From positions 81,289 through 145,288 of the forward strand of contig CAMIZG010000001.1 of assembly GCA_946403215.1 (NCBI GenBank): DNA of 64,000 bases, given 5' to 3'. The notes under the pieces are model-generated. The model made no database searches. It was not told where the DNA came from and worked only from the letters and a program-made list of their open reading frames with translations. Source of the DNA: an uncultured Bacteroidales bacterium. Lineage in GTDB: Bacteria; Bacteroidota; Bacteroidia; Bacteroidales; Paludibacteraceae. Positions 17,879 through 38,988 of this stretch are shown here, piece by piece; position 1 is the first letter of the stretch, and every line of letters starts with the position of its first letter. Both the position numbers and the translations under genes were made by a program.

Positions 17879-18625
17879 ATGCTGTCGCTCCATGATATAA
17901 ACATATATCCCTCCCAGAGGGCATTATCAGCCTTGCCGGAAGGCAAACTCCTGATAAACACCATCAATGCGCACTCATACAACGTAGCGCAAGAGGATGC
18001 TTTGTTTGCCGAGGCACTCAGGAATGGTGACGTTCTCCTCCCGGATGGTGCAAGCATTGTGCACGCATGCCGGTGGCTGAAAACGCCATCGCAGCCAGCT
18101 GAGCGGATAGCGGGATTCGACCTCTTCGTGCATGAGATGGTAGCGCTTGAGCAGCGTGCCGAGCAAAGCGAGAAACAACTCAAGGTGTTCTTCATGGGCT
18201 CGTCGCCAGAGGTGCTACAGCGAATAGAGCAGCGCGCGGCAACTGAATATCCTCATCTTAAGGTTATAACCTATTCACCGCCATACAAGTCTGAATTCTC
18301 GCAAGAAGACAACACCGCCATCATCCGTGCTATTAATACAGCCAGCCCCGATCTCCTCTGGATTGGCATGACAGCCCCTAAGCAGGAGAAATGGACATAT
18401 ACCCATTGGCATGAACTGCAAGTCAACTGCCATGTGGGTACTATCGGAGCCGTGTTCGACTTCTACGCCGGCACCGCCAAACGCGCACCACTATGGTGGC
18501 AGCAGCACTCGCTCGAATGGCTCTACCGCCTCATCCGTGAACCGCGCCGCATGTGGCGCCGATATATCATTGGCAACATTCTGTTTATCCACAATATACT
18601 TCGTGACAAGCGAACGCATAGATAA
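17879..18625 (+). CDS. WecG/TagA/CpsF family glycosyltransferase
   Basis: LINTINAHSYNVAQEDALFAEALRNGDVLLPDGASIVHACRWL...FFMGSSPEVL...PDLLWIGMTAPKQEKW...GAVFDFYAGTAKRAP. Confidence 0.93.
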   Translation: MLSLHDINIYPSQRALSALPEGKLLINTINAHSYNVAQEDALFAEALRNGDVLLPDGASIVHACRWLKTPSQPAERIAGFDLFVHEMVALEQRAEQSEKQLKVFFMGSSPEVLQRIEQRAATEYPHLKVITYSPPYKSEFSQEDNTAIIRAINTASPDLLWIGMTAPKQEKWTYTHWHELQVNCHVGTIGAVFDFYAGTAKRAPLWWQQHSLEWLYRLIREPRRMWRRYIIGNILFIHNILRDKRTHR

Positions 18626-19625
18626 AGAATTTCTTGCACTCATCGCATTGCTGCGGCTGGCAGTTAATCCTGCTGCCGAGCAGCCGCAACAACAGCCAGT
18701 GCTTATCGCCGATGAGTGGCGCGAAGTATATCATCTTGCTGTAAAGCATGCGGTTGTAGCCCTGGCGTGGGATGGAGTTGAGCGCTTGCAATCGCAGACC
18801 CCTGATGCACTCCGAGCATTTCCTGCTGACTTAATGGGCAAGTGGTTCGCTGATGTTCAGGCGATAGAAGCCGCAAACAGCCAAATGGCAATGCAGGCAT
18901 CCTATTTGCATTTTTTCATGCAAGAAGGGGATTTCGATGCATATACCCTGAAAGGCGTAACGTGGGCTGCATATTATCCCAAACCTGAACATCGCCAGTC
19001 GGCAGATATAGATTTATGGGTACTGCCCAATAAAAATAAGCTTGCTTCTCTTCAGGAGCGACGTGAGGCACTAATAGCATTCCTTAATAGCCGCGAAGTG
19101 CCTATAGGCGAAGTGGTGTACCACCATTTGGAAGCAAAGTTTTTCCGTAACACGGAAGTTGAACTCCACGTCACGCCCACATGGCTTTACAATCCACTGC
19201 ATAACAACAGACTGCAGCAACAGTTTTTGCACGCAAGGTTCCTAACACACGAATTGCAAGAGACCTATGCCCTTCTCCACGCATTTCGGCATATCTACCA
19301 CGACGGTCTCGCTTTGCGGCATATGTTGGATTACTTCGTGATTTGCAGAGCAAATAGAGAGAAAGACATCGCTGCCCCGTCAAAGTTTTACCGGCAAATA
19401 GGAATGAACTCGTTTGCTCGGGCGATGGACGAGCTCAGTGAGTATTTGTTTGCATCGCCTGCCACTTCGTCTATCCATTTGTCGCGTTGCGCCCGGCATC
19501 TGTTGGATGCTCTGCCCCTACGGCATATATCGAAACGCGTCCAGTGGGACTATCCGTCCGAAACAATCTGGCGCTTTCCTTGGCGCACGGCTCATTTCTT
19601 CTGGCGTAAGACATTATCCAAATAA
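18603..19625 (+). CDS. NTP_transf_5-like (uncharacterised nucleotidyltransferase) family protein; probable GTG start
   Basis: AYTLKGVTWAAYYPKPEHRQSADIDLWV...VELHVTPTWLYNPLHNNRL...HAFRHIYHDGLALRHMLDYFVI; the ORF-track start (18411) lies inside wecG. Confidence 0.75.
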   Translation: MTSERIDKEFLALIALLRLAVNPAAEQPQQQPVLIADEWREVYHLAVKHAVVALAWDGVERLQSQTPDALRAFPADLMGKWFADVQAIEAANSQMAMQASYLHFFMQEGDFDAYTLKGVTWAAYYPKPEHRQSADIDLWVLPNKNKLASLQERREALIAFLNSREVPIGEVVYHHLEAKFFRNTEVELHVTPTWLYNPLHNNRLQQQFLHARFLTHELQETYALLHAFRHIYHDGLALRHMLDYFVICRANREKDIAAPSKFYRQIGMNSFARAMDELSEYLFASPATSSIHLSRCARHLLDALPLRHISKRVQWDYPSETIWRFPWRTAHFFWRKTLSK

Positions 19626-19626
19626 T

Positions 19627-20364
19627 ATGAAAATCATCGGTGTTATACCGGCTCGCTATCAATCAAGCCGTTTCCCAGGCAAACCATTGGCGGACATCCT
19701 CGGCAAACCCATGATCTGGTGGGTGTATCAGCAGTGCCTCAAAGTCCGTGAACTGGACGAAGTATATGTCGCTACTGACGATGAGCGCATCTTCAATATC
19801 TGCACCGAGTTCGGCATGCGCGTCATCATGACCTCTGACCAGCACCGCTCCGGCACTGATCGTCTCGGCGAGGTCGCGACCAAAGTCAGTGGTGACCTGT
19901 TCGTCAATATCCAAGGCGACGAACCGCTCATCGAGCCGCAGATGATCCGCGACCTCATCGGCATCTTTGATGACCAATCCGTCTATTACGGTTCACTCCG
20001 CAAGCAGATCACCGACGAGGCAGAGATCCAAGCGCCCAGCACGGTCAAGGTCGTTGTGGACAAGAACGAAGACGCACTCTACTTCTCGCGTAGCGTCATC
20101 CCCTCCAACGTCAAAGACGGCAAACCCGTTCGCATATATCGCCATGTGGGTATCTATGCCTACAAGCGCGATTTCCTTATGACGTTCATTCAGCTCCCGC
20201 CATCCGAACTTGAGGCAGTCGAAGGCCTTGAGCAACTCCGCGCTCTGGAGAACGGCTACAAGCTCCGCGTCCACGAAACGCAATTCGATTCCATCGGCGT
20301 TGATCTGCCCGAGCATATTGCACTGGTCGAACAAGCTATCTTACGCAATCAATCCGCCCAATGA
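19627..20364 (+). CDS. kdsB: 3-deoxy-manno-octulosonate cytidylyltransferase
   Basis: MKIIGVIPARYQSSRFPGKPLADILGKPMIWWVYQQ...VNIQGDEPLIEPQMI...SRSVIP...HVGIYAYKRDFL. Confidence 0.95.
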   Translation: MKIIGVIPARYQSSRFPGKPLADILGKPMIWWVYQQCLKVRELDEVYVATDDERIFNICTEFGMRVIMTSDQHRSGTDRLGEVATKVSGDLFVNIQGDEPLIEPQMIRDLIGIFDDQSVYYGSLRKQITDEAEIQAPSTVKVVVDKNEDALYFSRSVIPSNVKDGKPVRIYRHVGIYAYKRDFLMTFIQLPPSELEAVEGLEQLRALENGYKLRVHETQFDSIGVDLPEHIALVEQAILRNQSAQ

Positions 20365-21986
20365 CCGCCACATCCACATCTTCACTCCCGTGGCTCCGCC
20401 AAGCCGCACGTGCTTATCGGTTGCAGATGAGCGTGAACATCGCGCTTGGCATCACCGATGTGCTTATCGGCCTGGCTGAAGTGTGGTTAAGCAAGCAGCT
20501 CATTGATGCCGCTACTTCCGGCCATACATGGCACCTGAGTGATGGCGGTTGGCTCTCGCTGCCGGCACTTGCCGCGATGCTCATAACATGCATGCTCACG
20601 TCCGTTGCGCTGGCTTATGCCGTGCGATGGTTGCGCGCCAAGCTCTCCATCCGTTCGCTCAACCGGCTTCAGGCCGGCGAATATTCCCGGCTCTTACAAT
20701 CCCCGTGGCTCTACCTGCGCAAGCAGCACTCCGGAACACTCACCAATACGCTCATCGATGATATTGACACAATCTCATCGTTCCTTTCCGAACAGTTCCC
20801 GGCACTCGTTACCGCCGTGCTGCAGTTCGTAGGCGCGTTCGTTTTCCTTGCCGTTCTCGACTGGCGGCTGGCTCTTGTCATAGTCATCGTCACCCCGGCC
20901 ATCATCTCTGCGGCTCAACTCTATATCCGCCGCATGCGCCGTCATCGCCATCAGGTACGTGAAGATCAGGCTGCCATTCAGGCATTTATCCAGGAGACCA
21001 TCCAGCACTCGCTCATGCTCAAGGCGCTCAACCGTACGGCTTATGCCGGATCATTGCTTGACGAGCATCATGAGCGCTACAGTCAGAGTTTCATGCGCCT
21101 GACGCGTTATTCGGCGATGGCAACGGTACTTGTCCGTACGGCTTTTGTTGCAGGTTACCTCATTGCATTCTTCTGGGGAGCCTACAGCCTGTCGGTTCAC
21201 GCAATAACTTTCGGCGCAATGGTCGCCTTCGTTCAGCTGGTAGGACGTATCCAACAGCCCATGCGCACACTCATCGGATACGTAGGCACCTTTGTCAATG
21301 TGTTCACCGCTGCCGAACGCATCGCAGCGCTCGCAGGTCAGCAATCAGCGATCAGTAGTCAGCAGTCAGCAGTCAGAGGTCAACTGTCAACTATACAAGT
21401 CTCCGACCTCTCCTTCACGTACCCCGATTCCGACGAACCAGTCCTCTCCCACCTGAACGCTACTATCCCACAAGGTTCGCTTACGGCCGTTGTCGGCAAA
21501 ACGGGCATCGGCAAAACAACGTTTGTCCAACTTCTGCTTGGATTGCTTCCCGCCCCCGAAGGCACGCTCAATGTTCCCGCTCAAGGTTTTTCCTATGTCC
21601 CGCAGGGCAATACGCTCCTTTCCGGCACGATCCGATACAATCTTCTTTTCGGCAACCCCACCGCAACCGACCAAGCCATGCGCGAGGCTCTTAGGCTCGC
21701 TGATGCCGACTTTGTCCTTGGCGATGAACGTGGCTTGGATTATCCATGTGGCGAACGCGGTTCAGGGCTCAGCGAGGGACAGGCGCAACGCATTGCTATT
21801 GCCCGCGCCCTGCTCATAGATGCTCCTGTTCTGCTGCTTGACGAAGCCTTCTCGGCGCTGGATACGCAGACTGCCGAAACCATCCTCACCAATATCCGTC
21901 GTGCTCGCCCCGAACAGACCATCATTTGCATCACCCACCGCGATGCACTTATCCCACAAGCCGACCAAGTCATTCATCTTACTTAA
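20361..21986 (+). CDS. ABC transporter, fused permease/ATP-binding (type I exporter)
   Basis: TM domain, Walker A GKTGIGKTT, signature GSGLSEGQAQRIAIARALL, Walker B LLLDEAFSALD; ATGA overlap with kdsB. Confidence 0.92.
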   Translation: MTATSTSSLPWLRQAARAYRLQMSVNIALGITDVLIGLAEVWLSKQLIDAATSGHTWHLSDGGWLSLPALAAMLITCMLTSVALAYAVRWLRAKLSIRSLNRLQAGEYSRLLQSPWLYLRKQHSGTLTNTLIDDIDTISSFLSEQFPALVTAVLQFVGAFVFLAVLDWRLALVIVIVTPAIISAAQLYIRRMRRHRHQVREDQAAIQAFIQETIQHSLMLKALNRTAYAGSLLDEHHERYSQSFMRLTRYSAMATVLVRTAFVAGYLIAFFWGAYSLSVHAITFGAMVAFVQLVGRIQQPMRTLIGYVGTFVNVFTAAERIAALAGQQSAISSQQSAVRGQLSTIQVSDLSFTYPDSDEPVLSHLNATIPQGSLTAVVGKTGIGKTTFVQLLLGLLPAPEGTLNVPAQGFSYVPQGNTLLSGTIRYNLLFGNPTATDQAMREALRLADADFVLGDERGLDYPCGERGSGLSEGQAQRIAIARALLIDAPVLLLDEAFSALDTQTAETILTNIRRARPEQTIICITHRDALIPQADQVIHLT

Positions 21987-22034: not shown

Positions 22035-22523
22035 ATGCAACAACCCGATATCCGCCTTTTCCTCTGCGACGTAGATGGCACCCTCACCGATGGTGGCATG
22101 TATTACACCGAGAATGGCGACGAGCTCAAGAAGTTCAACACCCGCGATGGAATGGCGCTGCAGATCTTGCACGACCATGGTATCCGCACGGGTATCATTA
22201 CCTCTGAGCAGCGCGACCTCGTGGCACGCCGTGCTACCAAGCTCCGTGTCGATTACCTTCGCCTCGGGCAGTTCGGCGGTGGCAAACGTGAAGTGGCAGA
22301 AGCCATCTGCCGAGAGATGGGCATCACCATGCAGCAAGTGCTCTACATAGGCGACGACCTCAATTGCTACGATATTCTTACTGCCGTAGGCTATCCCGCT
22401 TGCCCTGCTGATGCGTGCAACAAGGTGCTCAATATTCCCGGCATCCATGTTTTGTCGCGCAAAGGCGGCGATGCTGTCGTCCGCGAACTTGCTGAAAAAC
22501 TCTTCCCCGACTGGTTCAATTAA
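22035..22523 (+). CDS. kdsC: 3-deoxy-D-manno-octulosonate 8-phosphate phosphatase
   Basis: IRLFLCDVDGTLTDGGMYYTENGDELKKFNTRDGMALQILHDHGIRTGIITSE...YIGDDLNCYDIL; adjacent to kdsB. Confidence 0.92.
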   Translation: MQQPDIRLFLCDVDGTLTDGGMYYTENGDELKKFNTRDGMALQILHDHGIRTGIITSEQRDLVARRATKLRVDYLRLGQFGGGKREVAEAICREMGITMQQVLYIGDDLNCYDILTAVGYPACPADACNKVLNIPGIHVLSRKGGDAVVRELAEKLFPDWFN

Positions 22524-22919: not shown

Positions 22920-25046
22920 ATGAAAGCAAAAAGTTTGTTTTTAGTATTTGCTTTATCGCTCTTGTTACCCTTCGCTGCGCTTGCAGCAGAGAAGACTGAC
23001 ACGTATTCTGCACCCGGTAGTTTTGCTTACGATGAGATTCCTATCTCTGGCGCCCTGGGTACCAGTGGAGCAACGTATGCAGGTACCGTAGGATATGATG
23101 GCGATTATCCATGTTTCGTGCTCGACCAAGAGTACATTTGTGCTACCACATTATCCCCTGGTACAGTTAAGGCGATTACCATCACATGGGCAGATGATGA
23201 TGAATTCTACAATACACCTAGCGAGTCGGCCATTTTTGTATATGGTAGTGAAACGGCCTTCGACGGTTCAGAGACATTGGGTGACTTGGCTGCAGCCGGT
23301 AAACCGTGTATTGGCACCCTGTACTATAGCGCCCCGGGTGCTGTGAGTGTCACACTTTCTGCTCATCCCGCGCATATTGCTATCGTGGGTGGACCTATTA
23401 ACGCGGCTGTCGAGAGTATTTCGATAACATGGACTGTGCCTGACGTAACGACGTACACCCTCACAGGTACTATCGGTTCGGGAAAGGGTAAGGTGACATT
23501 TAAGCCCACATCTCCTGTGGCTGAAGGTGCCGAGGTGACAGTTACGATGAAAGCGGGTAGTGGAAACGAACTCCGCAGTTTCACCATTGATGGGGCTACC
23601 ACAGTGTTGACGGAAGATGAATATACGGGCAGCGAGACGCGTACATTTACTATGCCGGCACATAACGTTACCGTTACTGCCAATTTCGCCACGGCTCCTT
23701 CGCGTGTGGCCAATCCTATTTATGTAAATGGCAAAGTGGAAATCTACGAGACGATTATCCCGTCCGGCGTGGATTCCGTCTATACTATTAGCACAGCGGC
23801 TGCATATACTGCCGGATGGAAAAGCATTACATCCACAAGCAATAGAGTTAAAGTCGTTAGCACGACCTCTCCGGTTAGTGGCGTTAGCCAGTTAACCCTC
23901 CGTGGCTTGGTCACCGGTTCTGACGAGATAGTAATTAATACATATCAGACCAATGGATTCTTACGCGCAAGCAAGGTCATCCGTGTAACCGTTGTGCCGC
24001 GTGAGGTTATTCTTGTTACTTCACTCAACGGAAAGCACTATGCACTTACACACACTATTGGTGGTGCAACCGCTACTGCTCAGGAACTGATCAAACAAGG
24101 GGCTAACTATTATTACAAATCCGATGTTACACCAAGTTCGTTCACATGGGATCTCTCATATGCAAATGATGCAGGGGATATTTATCTTAAGAATGGCGCA
24201 CAGTATCTATCCATTAAGGCGGCAAATATGTCGCTGTCCGGATCCGCATTCACTTGGTCGCATAATGCTGAGGATGTGCTGATTACCGATTATCTGACAA
24301 GTCCCTGCTACAATGAGAAGTTCTCGGCGTTTACCGTTGAAACCCAGAGCCAGTATGAGGGCGTGACGACAATCTCCGCACCAATTCGTGAGGTGAGCAT
24401 CAGCAACTTACTCCCCGCACCATCACCGTACACTCGCTCACTCACCAGTGGTAACTTTGCCACTATGTGTCTGCCCTTCCCCGTTAGCAGAAGCGATGCG
24501 TTCTTCAGCGGTGTTGATGTGTTCAACCTGACCGGTAAATACGTGAGTGCCGGCAAGGTAACAGGCATTGAAATTGAGGAGGAAACAGGCGTACTCGTTG
24601 CAGGTAAGCCATACATCATCCAGGCGACAGCAAGCACGCTCACTGTTTGGTACGGCGTAGCAAGTGCTGTCTCACCCGTTGCCGCTACAGGTCTTGTGGG
24701 CAATCTTAGTGCCTCACCGCTTAGCGTTCCAGATGGATGTTATGGATTCCTGTCTAATCTGTTGCACAAGGTTGCCGGTGGTACAGCCACCATCAGACAG
24801 TACAGAGCATATATTGACTTGAGCGCAGTACCGGAAATCGCTGCAGGAGCATCTGCTCCCGGACGTATATCCATTTACACCGATGATTCCGGCGACGAGG
24901 AGACTCCGACTTCCGTTGACCAACTCCTCGAGCATGCTACGTTCATTAACTGGAACGAGCCCGTGTATAACACGCTCGGCCAGCGCGTAGGCAGAGGATC
25001 AACAGGCGTTCTTATCCAGAACGGACGGAAATTCTTGGTTCAATAA
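22920..25046 (+). CDS. Secreted protein with divergent InlB-type repeat domain and a short C-terminal sorting-like tail
   Basis: Signal peptide MKAKSLFLVFALSLLLPFAALA; GTIGSGKGKVTFKPTSPVAEGAEVTVTMKAGSGNELRSF...TFTMPAHNVTVTANF; C-term YNTLGQRVGRGSTGVLIQNGRKFLVQ. Confidence 0.8.
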   Translation: MKAKSLFLVFALSLLLPFAALAAEKTDTYSAPGSFAYDEIPISGALGTSGATYAGTVGYDGDYPCFVLDQEYICATTLSPGTVKAITITWADDDEFYNTPSESAIFVYGSETAFDGSETLGDLAAAGKPCIGTLYYSAPGAVSVTLSAHPAHIAIVGGPINAAVESISITWTVPDVTTYTLTGTIGSGKGKVTFKPTSPVAEGAEVTVTMKAGSGNELRSFTIDGATTVLTEDEYTGSETRTFTMPAHNVTVTANFATAPSRVANPIYVNGKVEIYETIIPSGVDSVYTISTAAAYTAGWKSITSTSNRVKVVSTTSPVSGVSQLTLRGLVTGSDEIVINTYQTNGFLRASKVIRVTVVPREVILVTSLNGKHYALTHTIGGATATAQELIKQGANYYYKSDVTPSSFTWDLSYANDAGDIYLKNGAQYLSIKAANMSLSGSAFTWSHNAEDVLITDYLTSPCYNEKFSAFTVETQSQYEGVTTISAPIREVSISNLLPAPSPYTRSLTSGNFATMCLPFPVSRSDAFFSGVDVFNLTGKYVSAGKVTGIEIEEETGVLVAGKPYIIQATASTLTVWYGVASAVSPVAATGLVGNLSASPLSVPDGCYGFLSNLLHKVAGGTATIRQYRAYIDLSAVPEIAAGASAPGRISIYTDDSGDEETPTSVDQLLEHATFINWNEPVYNTLGQRVGRGSTGVLIQNGRKFLVQ

Positions 25047-25138: not shown

Positions 25139-25318
25139 ATGAAAAAGTTTATTGCACCTGAAGTAAAAGTAGTGCGTTACGACTCAAGCATACTCTGCAC
25201 CAGCATTGGCATGGGCGATGATATCGGTCCTGGCCAGGAGGTTGAGTTCGATGCACCGGGACGTCGTCGTTCCATCTTTGAGGACGATGCACCTGAGCAG
25301 AACAAAGGCCGCCGCTAA
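25139..25318 (+). CDS. 59-aa small peptide, candidate modified-peptide precursor
   Basis: MKKFIAPEVKVVRYDSSILCTSIGMGDDIGPGQEVEFDAPGRRRSIFEDDAPEQNKGRR; 22 nt upstream of the PqqD-like gene. Confidence 0.7.
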   Translation: MKKFIAPEVKVVRYDSSILCTSIGMGDDIGPGQEVEFDAPGRRRSIFEDDAPEQNKGRR

Positions 25319-25340
25319 TCAGCGAGCCCACGGCTGTCGT

Positions 25341-25628
25341 ATGCGACTGCGCTACACCTTCCGCTTTCAGCAGCTCGGTGATACATTCCTCGGCGCTGCT
25401 GTCGGACAAAATGCCCACCTCTTCAACGGAATCCTCCAACTGAATGAGGTGGGGCATTTTCTTGTCTCACAACTCGCCGAACTCCCTCCGACCGAGTCCG
25501 ACGAACAGCAGACAATAACCACTCTAACCAACGCGTTAATCCGCGAATACGAAGTTGATACACCTACAGCCAGGCAGGCTGTCCAGCAAGTCGTAGATTA
25601 CTTACAACAAGAAGGCGTGTTATCGTAA
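25341..25628 (+). CDS. PqqD-like protein (RiPP recognition element fold)
   Basis: LRYTFRFQQLGDTFLGAAVGQNAHLFNGILQLNEVGHFLVSQLAE...LIREYEVDTPTARQAVQQVVDYLQQEGVLS; ATG at 25341 preferred over the ORF-track start. Confidence 0.8.
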   Translation: MRLRYTFRFQQLGDTFLGAAVGQNAHLFNGILQLNEVGHFLVSQLAELPPTESDEQQTITTLTNALIREYEVDTPTARQAVQQVVDYLQQEGVLS

Positions 25629-25639
25629 CACGCCTTCTT
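25609..25639. terminator. Bidirectional hairpin between convergent pqqD-like and clpB genes
   Basis: AAGAAGGCGTGTTA-TCG-TAACACGCCTTCTT, 14-bp perfect stem; contains the pqqD-like stop codon. Confidence 0.75.
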
Positions 25640-25664
25640 CGTCTGTTAGGAGCCTGTATTCGAC

Positions 25665-36862: not shown

Positions 36863-36998
36863 TCTGCCGTTAATAATGGCGGTTCTGACAATAGGCACCG
36901 TATATTTAGTGCACCAACTGCAAAAATAGGAAAAATTCCCTCGCAATTGCCTCGTAAATGGTCTTTTGACGAAAAAAAATAAAATAATCCCCCAAAAA

Positions 36999-37030
36999 TT
37001 TGCAAATACAAATAATTTTTTGTACCTTTG
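36999..37030 (+). promoter_or_regulatory. Promoter of cotH-like gene
   Basis: TTTG near 36999-37002 and TACCTTTG at 37023-37030. Confidence 0.7.
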
Positions 37031-37056
37031 TACGTTTTTGTGTTTATCGCGCACGC

Positions 37057-38988
37057 ATGCGCATGCGAATACGTACGTCAACACATATCATCTCTGCTCT
37101 CGGGCTGTGTGCGGCAATCATGCTGCACGCGGCTAATCTGTCTGCTGCTGACGCCAAGTTGGCAGGCATCCCGATAGGTTCGACGCCGTCGGTGGACTAT
37201 TCGACCAACCCGTTCTCGGCGACGACAAGCAAGAACCAGCCGAAAGATGCGTTTGACGGGGATTTGAACACGTTCTATGCCTCCTATGAGCGGACGTACA
37301 CGTGGGTTGGACTGGACTTGGGGCAGAAACATGTGATAACCAAAGTGGGGTGGAGTCCGAGGAACGACGGTCAAGGCGAGAAACGTGTGCAGCTGGCGGT
37401 GTTCGAAGGCGCGAACAGAGCGGACTTCATGGATGCCGTGCCCATCTATCTGAACGACAAGAAAGGCACGATAGGCAAGATGGATTATGCGGATGTGGAC
37501 TGTTCGCTGGGTTTCCGGTACGTGCGGTACGTGGGGCCGAACGATGCGCGTTGCAATGTGGCGGAGGTGGAGTTCTACGGCTATGCCGGCGAAGGTGACA
37601 GTACGCGGCTGTACAGACCGACGAACCTGCCGCTGGTGATTATCCGGACGAAAGACAGTCAGGATCCTTACGACAAGGTGAACTACATAGAAAGCGTGGT
37701 GACGATAATTAGCGGTCAGCAGTCAGCAGTCAGCGGTCAGCAGTCAGCGGTCAGCGGTCAGGTGCAAGTGCTGCGGGACAGTGCCGGCGTGCGGTTGCGG
37801 GGCAATGCATCAATGGGATTCCCGAAGAAGCCGTACCGGATAAAGTTCGCGAACAAGCATAATGTGCTGGGATCGCCCGCCAATGCGAAGAACTGGACGC
37901 TGATCAACAACTACGGCGACAAGAGCCTGATGCGTAACATCCTGGCGTTCCATGTGAGCGAGGCGGCCGATATGCCCTACACGCCGTTCTGCAAGGCCGT
38001 GGATGTGATGGTGAACGGCGAATACAAAGGCTGCTACCAGTTGTGCGACAAGATAGAGGTGAAGAAAGGCCGTGTGGATGTGAAAGAGATGAAACCGACA
38101 GATGTGTCGGGCGAGGCGCTGACGGGAGGATACCTGTGGGAAGTGGACAGCTATGCGTACAACGAACCGAACTACTTCTATACGCAGTACGGCATCGGGG
38201 TGACCATCCACTCGCCAAAGGATGACGAGATAGTGAGTGCGCAGCAGTCGTATCTGACGAACTTCTGCCAGTCGCTGGAGAACGCCGCATACAAGGCTTC
38301 GGCAAGCAACAGGTCGTGGCGGGAGTATGTGGATTATTCGACATTCGCGCGGTACTTCCTGATCAACCAGTTGTGCGGCAATCCTGACCTGTACTGGAGC
38401 ATGTACATGTACAAGCAGCGGGGTGACCAGAGAGCGTACACCGGTCCGGTGTGGGATTTTGACATAGCGTTTGACAACGACAACCGCGTCTATCCGCTGA
38501 AGAACGCCACGGATTATCTGTACGGCATAGCGGGCGAGGCGGCAACATTTGCCAAGAAGATGCTGTTCGCCGACCAACAGGCGAAAGACGATATGAAGGC
38601 GTGCTGGCACAAGATGCGCAACAACGGCATCAGCGCCGATGAACTGGCGGAGTATGTGGACGCCGTGGCAGAGGAGCTGGAGCAGTCGCAACGGCTGAAC
38701 TTCCTCAGGTGGCCCATCCTGAGCGAGTATGTGCACCAGAACCCCGTGGCATTGGGTTCGTACAGCAAGGAAGTGGAGCGGGTAAAAGAGTACCTGAAGA
38801 TGCGCGTGGGCTGGATGGACAGGAAGTTAGGCTACACGTGGCAGCCTATAGAGCAGCCGTCGGCGGTAGGGAATCAGCAATCAGACGTCAGCAATCAGCA
38901 GTCAGCGCGGAAGATTATGCGTGACGGGCAGTTGCTGATAGAACGTGAGGGGAAAACCTATATGGTGACGGGAGAGATGATAGAATAA
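37057..38988 (+). CDS. CotH-family protein with N-terminal F5/8C (discoidin)-like domain, secreted
   Basis: Signal peptide; FDGDLNTFYASYERTYTWVGLDLGQKHVITKVGWSPR; VRLRGNASMGFPKKPYRIKFANKHNVLG...WTLINNYGDKSLMRN...GYLWEVDSY; start 37057 because 37000 lies upstream of the promoter. Confidence 0.85.
   Translation: MRMRIRTSTHIISALGLCAAIMLHAANLSAADAKLAGIPIGSTPSVDYSTNPFSATTSKNQPKDAFDGDLNTFYASYERTYTWVGLDLGQKHVITKVGWSPRNDGQGEKRVQLAVFEGANRADFMDAVPIYLNDKKGTIGKMDYADVDCSLGFRYVRYVGPNDARCNVAEVEFYGYAGEGDSTRLYRPTNLPLVIIRTKDSQDPYDKVNYIESVVTIISGQQSAVSGQQSAVSGQVQVLRDSAGVRLRGNASMGFPKKPYRIKFANKHNVLGSPANAKNWTLINNYGDKSLMRNILAFHVSEAADMPYTPFCKAVDVMVNGEYKGCYQLCDKIEVKKGRVDVKEMKPTDVSGEALTGGYLWEVDSYAYNEPNYFYTQYGIGVTIHSPKDDEIVSAQQSYLTNFCQSLENAAYKASASNRSWREYVDYSTFARYFLINQLCGNPDLYWSMYMYKQRGDQRAYTGPVWDFDIAFDNDNRVYPLKNATDYLYGIAGEAATFAKKMLFADQQAKDDMKACWHKMRNNGISADELAEYVDAVAEELEQSQRLNFLRWPILSEYVHQNPVALGSYSKEVERVKEYLKMRVGWMDRKLGYTWQPIEQPSAVGNQQSDVSNQQSARKIMRDGQLLIEREGKTYMVTGEMIE

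Follow-up and report, generated by a model that had tools for sequence, protein, structure and literature searches.

Does a 59-codon reading frame directly ahead of a gene for a PqqD-like protein encode the precursor of a modified peptide, and if so, which enzymes might act on it? The pair lies in a 64,000-nucleotide stretch of DNA (the window) from an uncultured rumen bacterium of the order Bacteroidales, family Paludibacteraceae, for which a preliminary description had proposed an undescribed system made up of a short precursor, an RRE that would recognise it and a strong hairpin closing the unit. On rechecking, the coordinates and sequences of both frames and the 22-nt gap between them (25319–25340) proved exact (Table 1). 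The hairpin (AAGAAGGCGTGTTA..TAACACGCCTTCTT) is indeed strong, at -24.2 kcal/mol and z = -5.6, with none of 200 shuffled sequences folding as well. As it overlaps the PqqD stop codon and faces a convergent ClpB-like gene, it may be a bidirectional terminator shared with that gene.

Table 1. Features of the peptide locus and of the genes upstream of it, with positions in the window.
Feature	Position	Strand	Basis
WecG/TagA glycosyltransferase, closes the polysaccharide locus in which the system is embedded	17879..18625	+	
NTP_transf_5 nucleotidyltransferase (PF14907), LppN-like	18591..19625	+	PF14907 match, 2.3e-22
MsbA-like ABC exporter, LppD-like	20361..21986	+	
HAD phosphatase of KdsC/YrbI type, flanked by the exporter and secreted-protein genes	22035..22523	+	family-library scan
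Secreted protein, 708 aa, with N-terminal signal sequence, PF18998 and tail EPVYNTLGQRVGRGSTGVLIQNGRKFLVQ	22920..25046	+	
Putative RiPP precursor, 59 aa	25139..25318	+	conservation, leader motif, profile match
PqqD-family discrete RRE, 95 aa	25341..25628	+	Pfam, profile comparison, structure model
Perfect hairpin, end of unit	25611..25640	.	folding versus shuffles

There is good support for the short frame being a real gene and for its partnership with the PqqD protein. When GTDB genomes were scanned with the single window PqqD sequence as query, nine related loci emerged, listed under uncultured Bacteroidales or Paludibacteraceae and in several cases taken from rumen (RUG and RGIG) assemblies, and the peptide frame is intact beside PqqD in all nine. 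Its pooled pN/pS across related loci is 0.28, compared with 0.37 for PqqD, and falls to 0.11 for residues 1–22 against 0.37 for the rest. The peptide is therefore under purifying selection, strongest in the N-terminal half (MKKFIAPEVKVVRYDSSILCTS), which had looked conserved from the window alone. The leader motif reads F4-I-A-P7-x-V9 (FIAPEV in the window peptide). In the alignment IAPEV, VRYD, ILC, S22 and RRR are invariant, bar single substitutions at neighbouring columns within the blocks, and the C-terminus is conserved as DAPGRRRxIFxD. In a sample of 151 genomes of the genus, in which eight of the nine GTDB loci apparently recur, a peptide profile matched nine genomes at E < 1e-30, the next-best match (1.8e-7) being a different peptide in G546. 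The same nine, the window's own genome among them, carry a window-type PqqD at E < 1e-20, the other eight copies at 60–78% identity; because the two genes are adjacent, this co-presence reflects joint inheritance rather than an independent association. A single-sequence search with the peptide in 150 genomes of the family had returned, besides the peptide itself, weak matches only, and the genus sampling then recovered the relatives that it had missed.

The assignment of the 95-aa protein to the PqqD family also held, with a match to PF05402 (E 2.5e-9) of 37.8 bits, above the gathering cut-off of 23.4 bits. In profile comparisons it matches TfuB1, TbiB1, PbaB1 and LppB. Its structure model (pLDDT 92) has the winged-helix RRE fold, with lasso B1 RREs as the nearest solved structures, and matches leader-bound TbiB1 (E 2.5e-4, TM 0.64–0.70) and TfuB1. 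It has the fold and family (PF05402) of the PqqD of pyrroloquinoline quinone synthesis, but lies closer by profile and fold to the lasso B1 RREs, and no radical SAM partner was seen. An insert of variable length follows the first helix in the window protein and its orthologs (L134–L142), reaching about 25 residues in L141.

LppB serves the Linear Polyphosphorylated Peptides (LPP; Nat Commun 2026), a pathway said to be confined to Bacillota, and both LppB and PbaB1 have been crystallised with leaders (PMC13381572). In the LppB structure the leader proline is held by Asn33, and the leader tyrosine forms a bond with Asp70 (PMC13381572). The window PqqD has N35 at the position of LppB N33, invariant in alignment A6, and Ala at the position of D70, as do all nine orthologs; the only other PqqD in the same genome, on contig C16, has Asp there. 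When linked peptide/PqqD pairs, listed before their residues were read out, were compared at this position, six loci paired a leader Tyr with Asp, the window clade, L025 and L027 paired Phe with Ala or Glu, and two lasso-like loci paired Trp with Glu, in agreement with LppB, TfuB1, TbiB1 and PbaB1; the series contains few independent changes. One genome (G063) does not fit: its PqqD carries Ala at the D70 position, yet it encodes a YxxP peptide at an unlinked site. Three others (G543, G608 and G656) hold both kinds, a C16-type PqqD with Asp plus dispersed Tyr peptides, and a window-type PqqD plus a Phe peptide. That the leader aromatic changes in step with the RRE residue touching it in LppB strengthens the idea of a precursor and its RRE, to which the conservation, the PF05402 match and the proximity to lasso B1 RREs also lend support. 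Neither outcome that the preliminary description had named as fatal to its reading, a peptide not conserved beside PqqD or a 95-aa protein without a PF05402 match, was observed.

The preliminary description had treated peptide and PqqD as the unit and had seen no radical SAM, YcaO or lanthipeptide enzyme nearby. The pair is real, but the conserved unit also includes the secreted protein, whose PF18998 is an InlB-type repeat domain and which ends 92 bp upstream of the peptide: in all nine relatives a secreted protein with the shared tail directly precedes the peptide and PqqD directly follows it. Nor is the neighbourhood free of enzymes, as an NTP_transf_5 protein and an ABC exporter are encoded 3–7 kb upstream on the same strand. 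The same-strand upstream genes comprise WecG/TagA, NTP_transf_5, KdsB, the ABC exporter, the KdsC-type phosphatase and the secreted protein, and the order NTP_transf_5, ABC, secreted protein, peptide, PqqD is syntenic in seven of the nine relatives. The exceptions are L138, a 3.5-kb contig, and L142, which lacks NTP_transf_5 and ABC within 10 kb. Since the presence of the phosphatase varies, it is probably a neighbour rather than a part; KdsB and a UDP-galactopyranose-mutase-like gene are also variably present among relatives. The start of NTP_transf_5 is uncertain, its frame opening at 18411, inside the WecG gene. Positions 1–22523 of the window form a large polysaccharide locus with KdsC-type HAD phosphatases at 557–1096 and at its downstream end, and a gene that reads as CMP-Kdo-synthetase-like ends at 20364; of these three names, that of the downstream phosphatase comes from a scan against family libraries and the other two were read from the sequence.

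The suggestion that any modifying enzyme would be unusual or encoded elsewhere applies in part: a candidate kinase and peptidase are encoded elsewhere, the transferase and exporter just described are not. On C16 the second PqqD occurs together with an HprK-like kinase, the only one in the genome, and a signal-peptidase-I-like protein. The kinase was found in seven of the nine genomes that bear the window-type peptide, the other two being G622 (96% complete) and G672 (86%). A solved-structure search with the kinase profile gave no match. The combination of a PqqD-type protein and an HprK-related kinase recalls the HPr-rel-A system (NCBIfam TIGR04352 kinase and TIGR04353 PqqD), but neither these kinases nor these PqqD proteins reach the curated NCBIfam cut-offs, and the HPr-rel-A models define no precursor. 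The C16 protease, unlinked to the window peptide, has a model matching the LexA/signal peptidase fold, with S30, H68 and D83 invariant, and Ser, His and Asp are likewise invariant in the signal-peptidase-I-like proteins of PqqD loci across Bacteroidales. HprK-like, signal-peptidase-I-like and NTP_transf_5/ABC genes flank PqqD genes in this order; in a manual count of 58 PqqD loci from the family and order, selected for their resemblance to these PqqD proteins, kinase and peptidase were nearby in 30 and all five gene types in 11. In a further arrangement within the genus (L184, on G546:C111) a PqqD of the L025/L027 type stands together with a peptidase, a kinase and an ABC exporter. In four loci (L036, 10573–12891; L075, 10687–12924; L080, 6595–8877; L085, 1716–3956) the peptidase is fused to the exporter, its signal-peptidase-like domain lying at the ABC exporter N-terminus, unlike the cysteine-peptidase PCATs. 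No peptide was found at many of the full cassettes, for example L030, L037, L072 and L076, whose precursors may be dispersed or longer.

Dispersed putative precursors are common in the genus. A first motif scan of short frames was too permissive and returned mostly chance ORFs, and stricter criteria and profiles were used instead. A profile of the Tyr-type peptides matched 115 of the 151 genus genomes at E <= 0.05, with 1–15 matches per genome, a threshold at which a few chance matches per hundred genomes are expected and which may count some window-type Phe peptides. In the window's own genome this profile (A8) gave six matches, of which one (L213) was read, and the only convincing match to profile A4, built on mixed peptides, was the window peptide. 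Across the 151 genomes, 103 had both YxxP peptide and kinase, 12 the peptide only, 8 the kinase only and 28 neither (odds ratio 30, Fisher P = 3e-14, in a test that ignores phylogeny and genome completeness).

We suggest, with a probability of about 0.6, that the window pair works like LPP. The Paenibacillus alginolyticus genes for that pathway are lppA-K-B-S-D-N; LppK phosphorylates serine, and LppS, with catalysis of the Ser/His/Asp triad type, removes the leader together with LppB (PMC13381572). The window system has in common with LPP a precursor with an aromatic-xxP leader and a Ser at P+15, a discrete RRE that keeps the Asn, an MsbA-like exporter, an NTP transferase, a setting within a polysaccharide locus and the lack of any visible lasso cyclase; an HprK-like kinase and a signal-peptidase-I-like Ser/His/Asp protease are matched in the same genome by the proteins of C16. 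By this analogy the N-terminal half of the peptide would be a [Y/F]xxPx[V/L/I] leader that docks on the neighbouring PqqD, acting as a discrete RRE, which would present the peptide to the HprK-like kinase for phosphorylation of a Ser towards the end of the conserved stretch, and to the signal-peptidase-I-like protease, which would cleave around I-L-C-T-S. A further group would come from NTP_transf_5, and the linear product would leave the cell through the MsbA-like ABC protein. Judging from the spacing in PMC13381572, the candidate phospho-acceptor is Ser22 at P+15, a position shared with the LPP consensus; 31 of 33 peptides have a Ser at P+14 to P+18. As the kinase and protease lie outside the window cluster and beside a PqqD of their own, we can only infer their link to the window peptide; they may be shared with the other YxxP precursors of the genome, the window RRE and leader then representing a Phe/Ala variant of the Tyr/Asp pairing.

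Several features differ from LPP. The host belongs to Bacteroidota, not Bacillota; the leader has Phe for the Tyr of the LPP motif YxxPx[V/L/I/F/A] in the window and all orthologs, Tyr being found in the dispersed relatives; kinase and protease are unlinked and probably shared; precursors are many and dispersed, mostly behind secreted proteins; and some relatives fuse protease to exporter. The window RRE has Ala for Asp70, and P7 of the window peptide is followed by S17, I18 and L19 at P+10 to P+12 in place of the Px9Fx[T/A] that precedes the LPP cleavage site. Since these two LPP features are absent, we do not claim LPP membership and regard the window system as an LPP-like variant. The word "undescribed" holds only with a qualification, the same set of parts having been published in 2026 for the LPP of Bacillota (PMC13381572). 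A literature search, with subscription papers and preprints mostly outside its scope, returned no paper describing such a system in Bacteroidota and none on PqqD together with type IX secretion; a survey of Bacteroidales RiPPs names PqqD once, in its reference list (PMC10352776).

An RRE-bound precursor need not be phosphorylated. It could be glycosylated or nucleotidylylated by enzymes unlike those of LPP, such as NTP_transf_5 or the surrounding glycosyltransferases; the system is housed in a polysaccharide locus, and NTP_transf_5 is syntenic while the kinase is unlinked and, in G622, missing. We consider such a route rather unlikely, given that PqqD genes of this kind are most often accompanied in the order by kinase and peptidase and that the kinase tracks the peptide family across the genus. 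The lack of a kinase in G622 and G672 nevertheless counts against an LPP-like pathway, as do the 12 genus genomes with YxxP peptides and no kinase. More improbable still is that the two proteins form no RiPP system at all; the peptide would then go unmodified and, chaperoned by PqqD, partner or regulate the secreted protein or the polysaccharide locus. The conserved DAPGRRRxIFxD terminus, unlike the variable cores of many RiPPs, and the invariant association with the secreted protein would suit this, but constraint is greater on the leader than on the core, and both the covariation at the RRE pocket and the genome-wide co-occurrence with the kinase speak against it.

A lasso peptide whose cyclase and B2 protease are encoded elsewhere is the least credible of these readings, and we give it very little weight. 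Lasso clusters are known to include a YxxP-type leader, a B1-type RRE, a kinase, an NTP transferase and an ABC exporter, the [Y/W]xxP leader, B1-type RRE, HprK-like kinase, NTP transferase and exporter being those of paeninodin-like phosphorylated lasso peptides, and two loci of the same order of bacteria (L105 and L109), with WxxP leaders, a kinase and NTP_transf_5, are probably lasso loci. A whole-genome search, however, gave no match to the B2-type Transglut_core3 (PF13471), and the lasso assignment was set aside; neither the window nor the surroundings of related cassettes showed a cyclase, B2 is replaced by a signal-peptidase-like protease, and at the position of the Gly in the paeninodin RRE the window protein carries Asn.

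A C-terminal tail, KVLxDGQLxIIRxGKxYNxQGQxVK, possibly a sorting signal, is conserved among secreted proteins of the genus, and 22 of 26 peptide loci independent of the training of the tail profile follow such a protein at gaps of 9–164 bp, against a background of about 1.4% (5 of 289 genes in sampled genus loci, one of the five a training sequence). The conserved tail occurs in L160, L163, L165, L167, L192–L204, L206–L208 and L210–L215; in L186 and L187, two more of the 26, the peptide follows proteins with another tail. Some tailed proteins have no peptide behind them, for instance one on C16 and one in the window (36988–38988, 666 aa), where in place of a YxxP peptide a short repeated stretch (CTCGGCTAAAGCC...) precedes the next gene. 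The label of type IX (T9SS) cargo was rejected for the window protein, whose tail matches neither TIGR04183 nor PF18962. Those genus tails that were scanned gave no match to T9SS models, and the tailed proteins of L041, L160 and L167 no sorting-domain match in Pfam or NCBIfam; SprA is present in the window's own genome. A type A sorting domain is found in the upstream protein of three distant loci (L081 and L110 by both models, L036 by TIGR04183 only). We tentatively propose, as a possibility we still doubt, that many tailed proteins are paired with a modified peptide of their own, encoded within about 165 bp downstream and processed by a shared RRE, kinase, peptidase and exporter, that the peptide once mature targets the protein or becomes joined to it at the cell surface, and that the window represents a branch with a private RRE of altered specificity.

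If the window pair does work like LPP, a RiPP pathway so far reported as confined to Bacillota (PMC13381572) would extend to Bacteroidota, in a different genetic layout in which shared enzymes serve 1–15 dispersed precursors per genome. Small frames of this kind readily escape notice in Bacteroidales of the rumen and gut. Genomes that hold both Tyr/Asp and Phe/Ala pairings of leader and RRE are a natural setting in which to test how RREs prevent crosstalk between pathways. The authors of the LPP study left the function of the peptides open (PMC13381572), and the placing of the precursor genes after those for secreted proteins is a first clue to their purpose: if the pairing of secreted protein and peptide is true, the peptide may serve at the surface as a tag, an anchor or a regulator.
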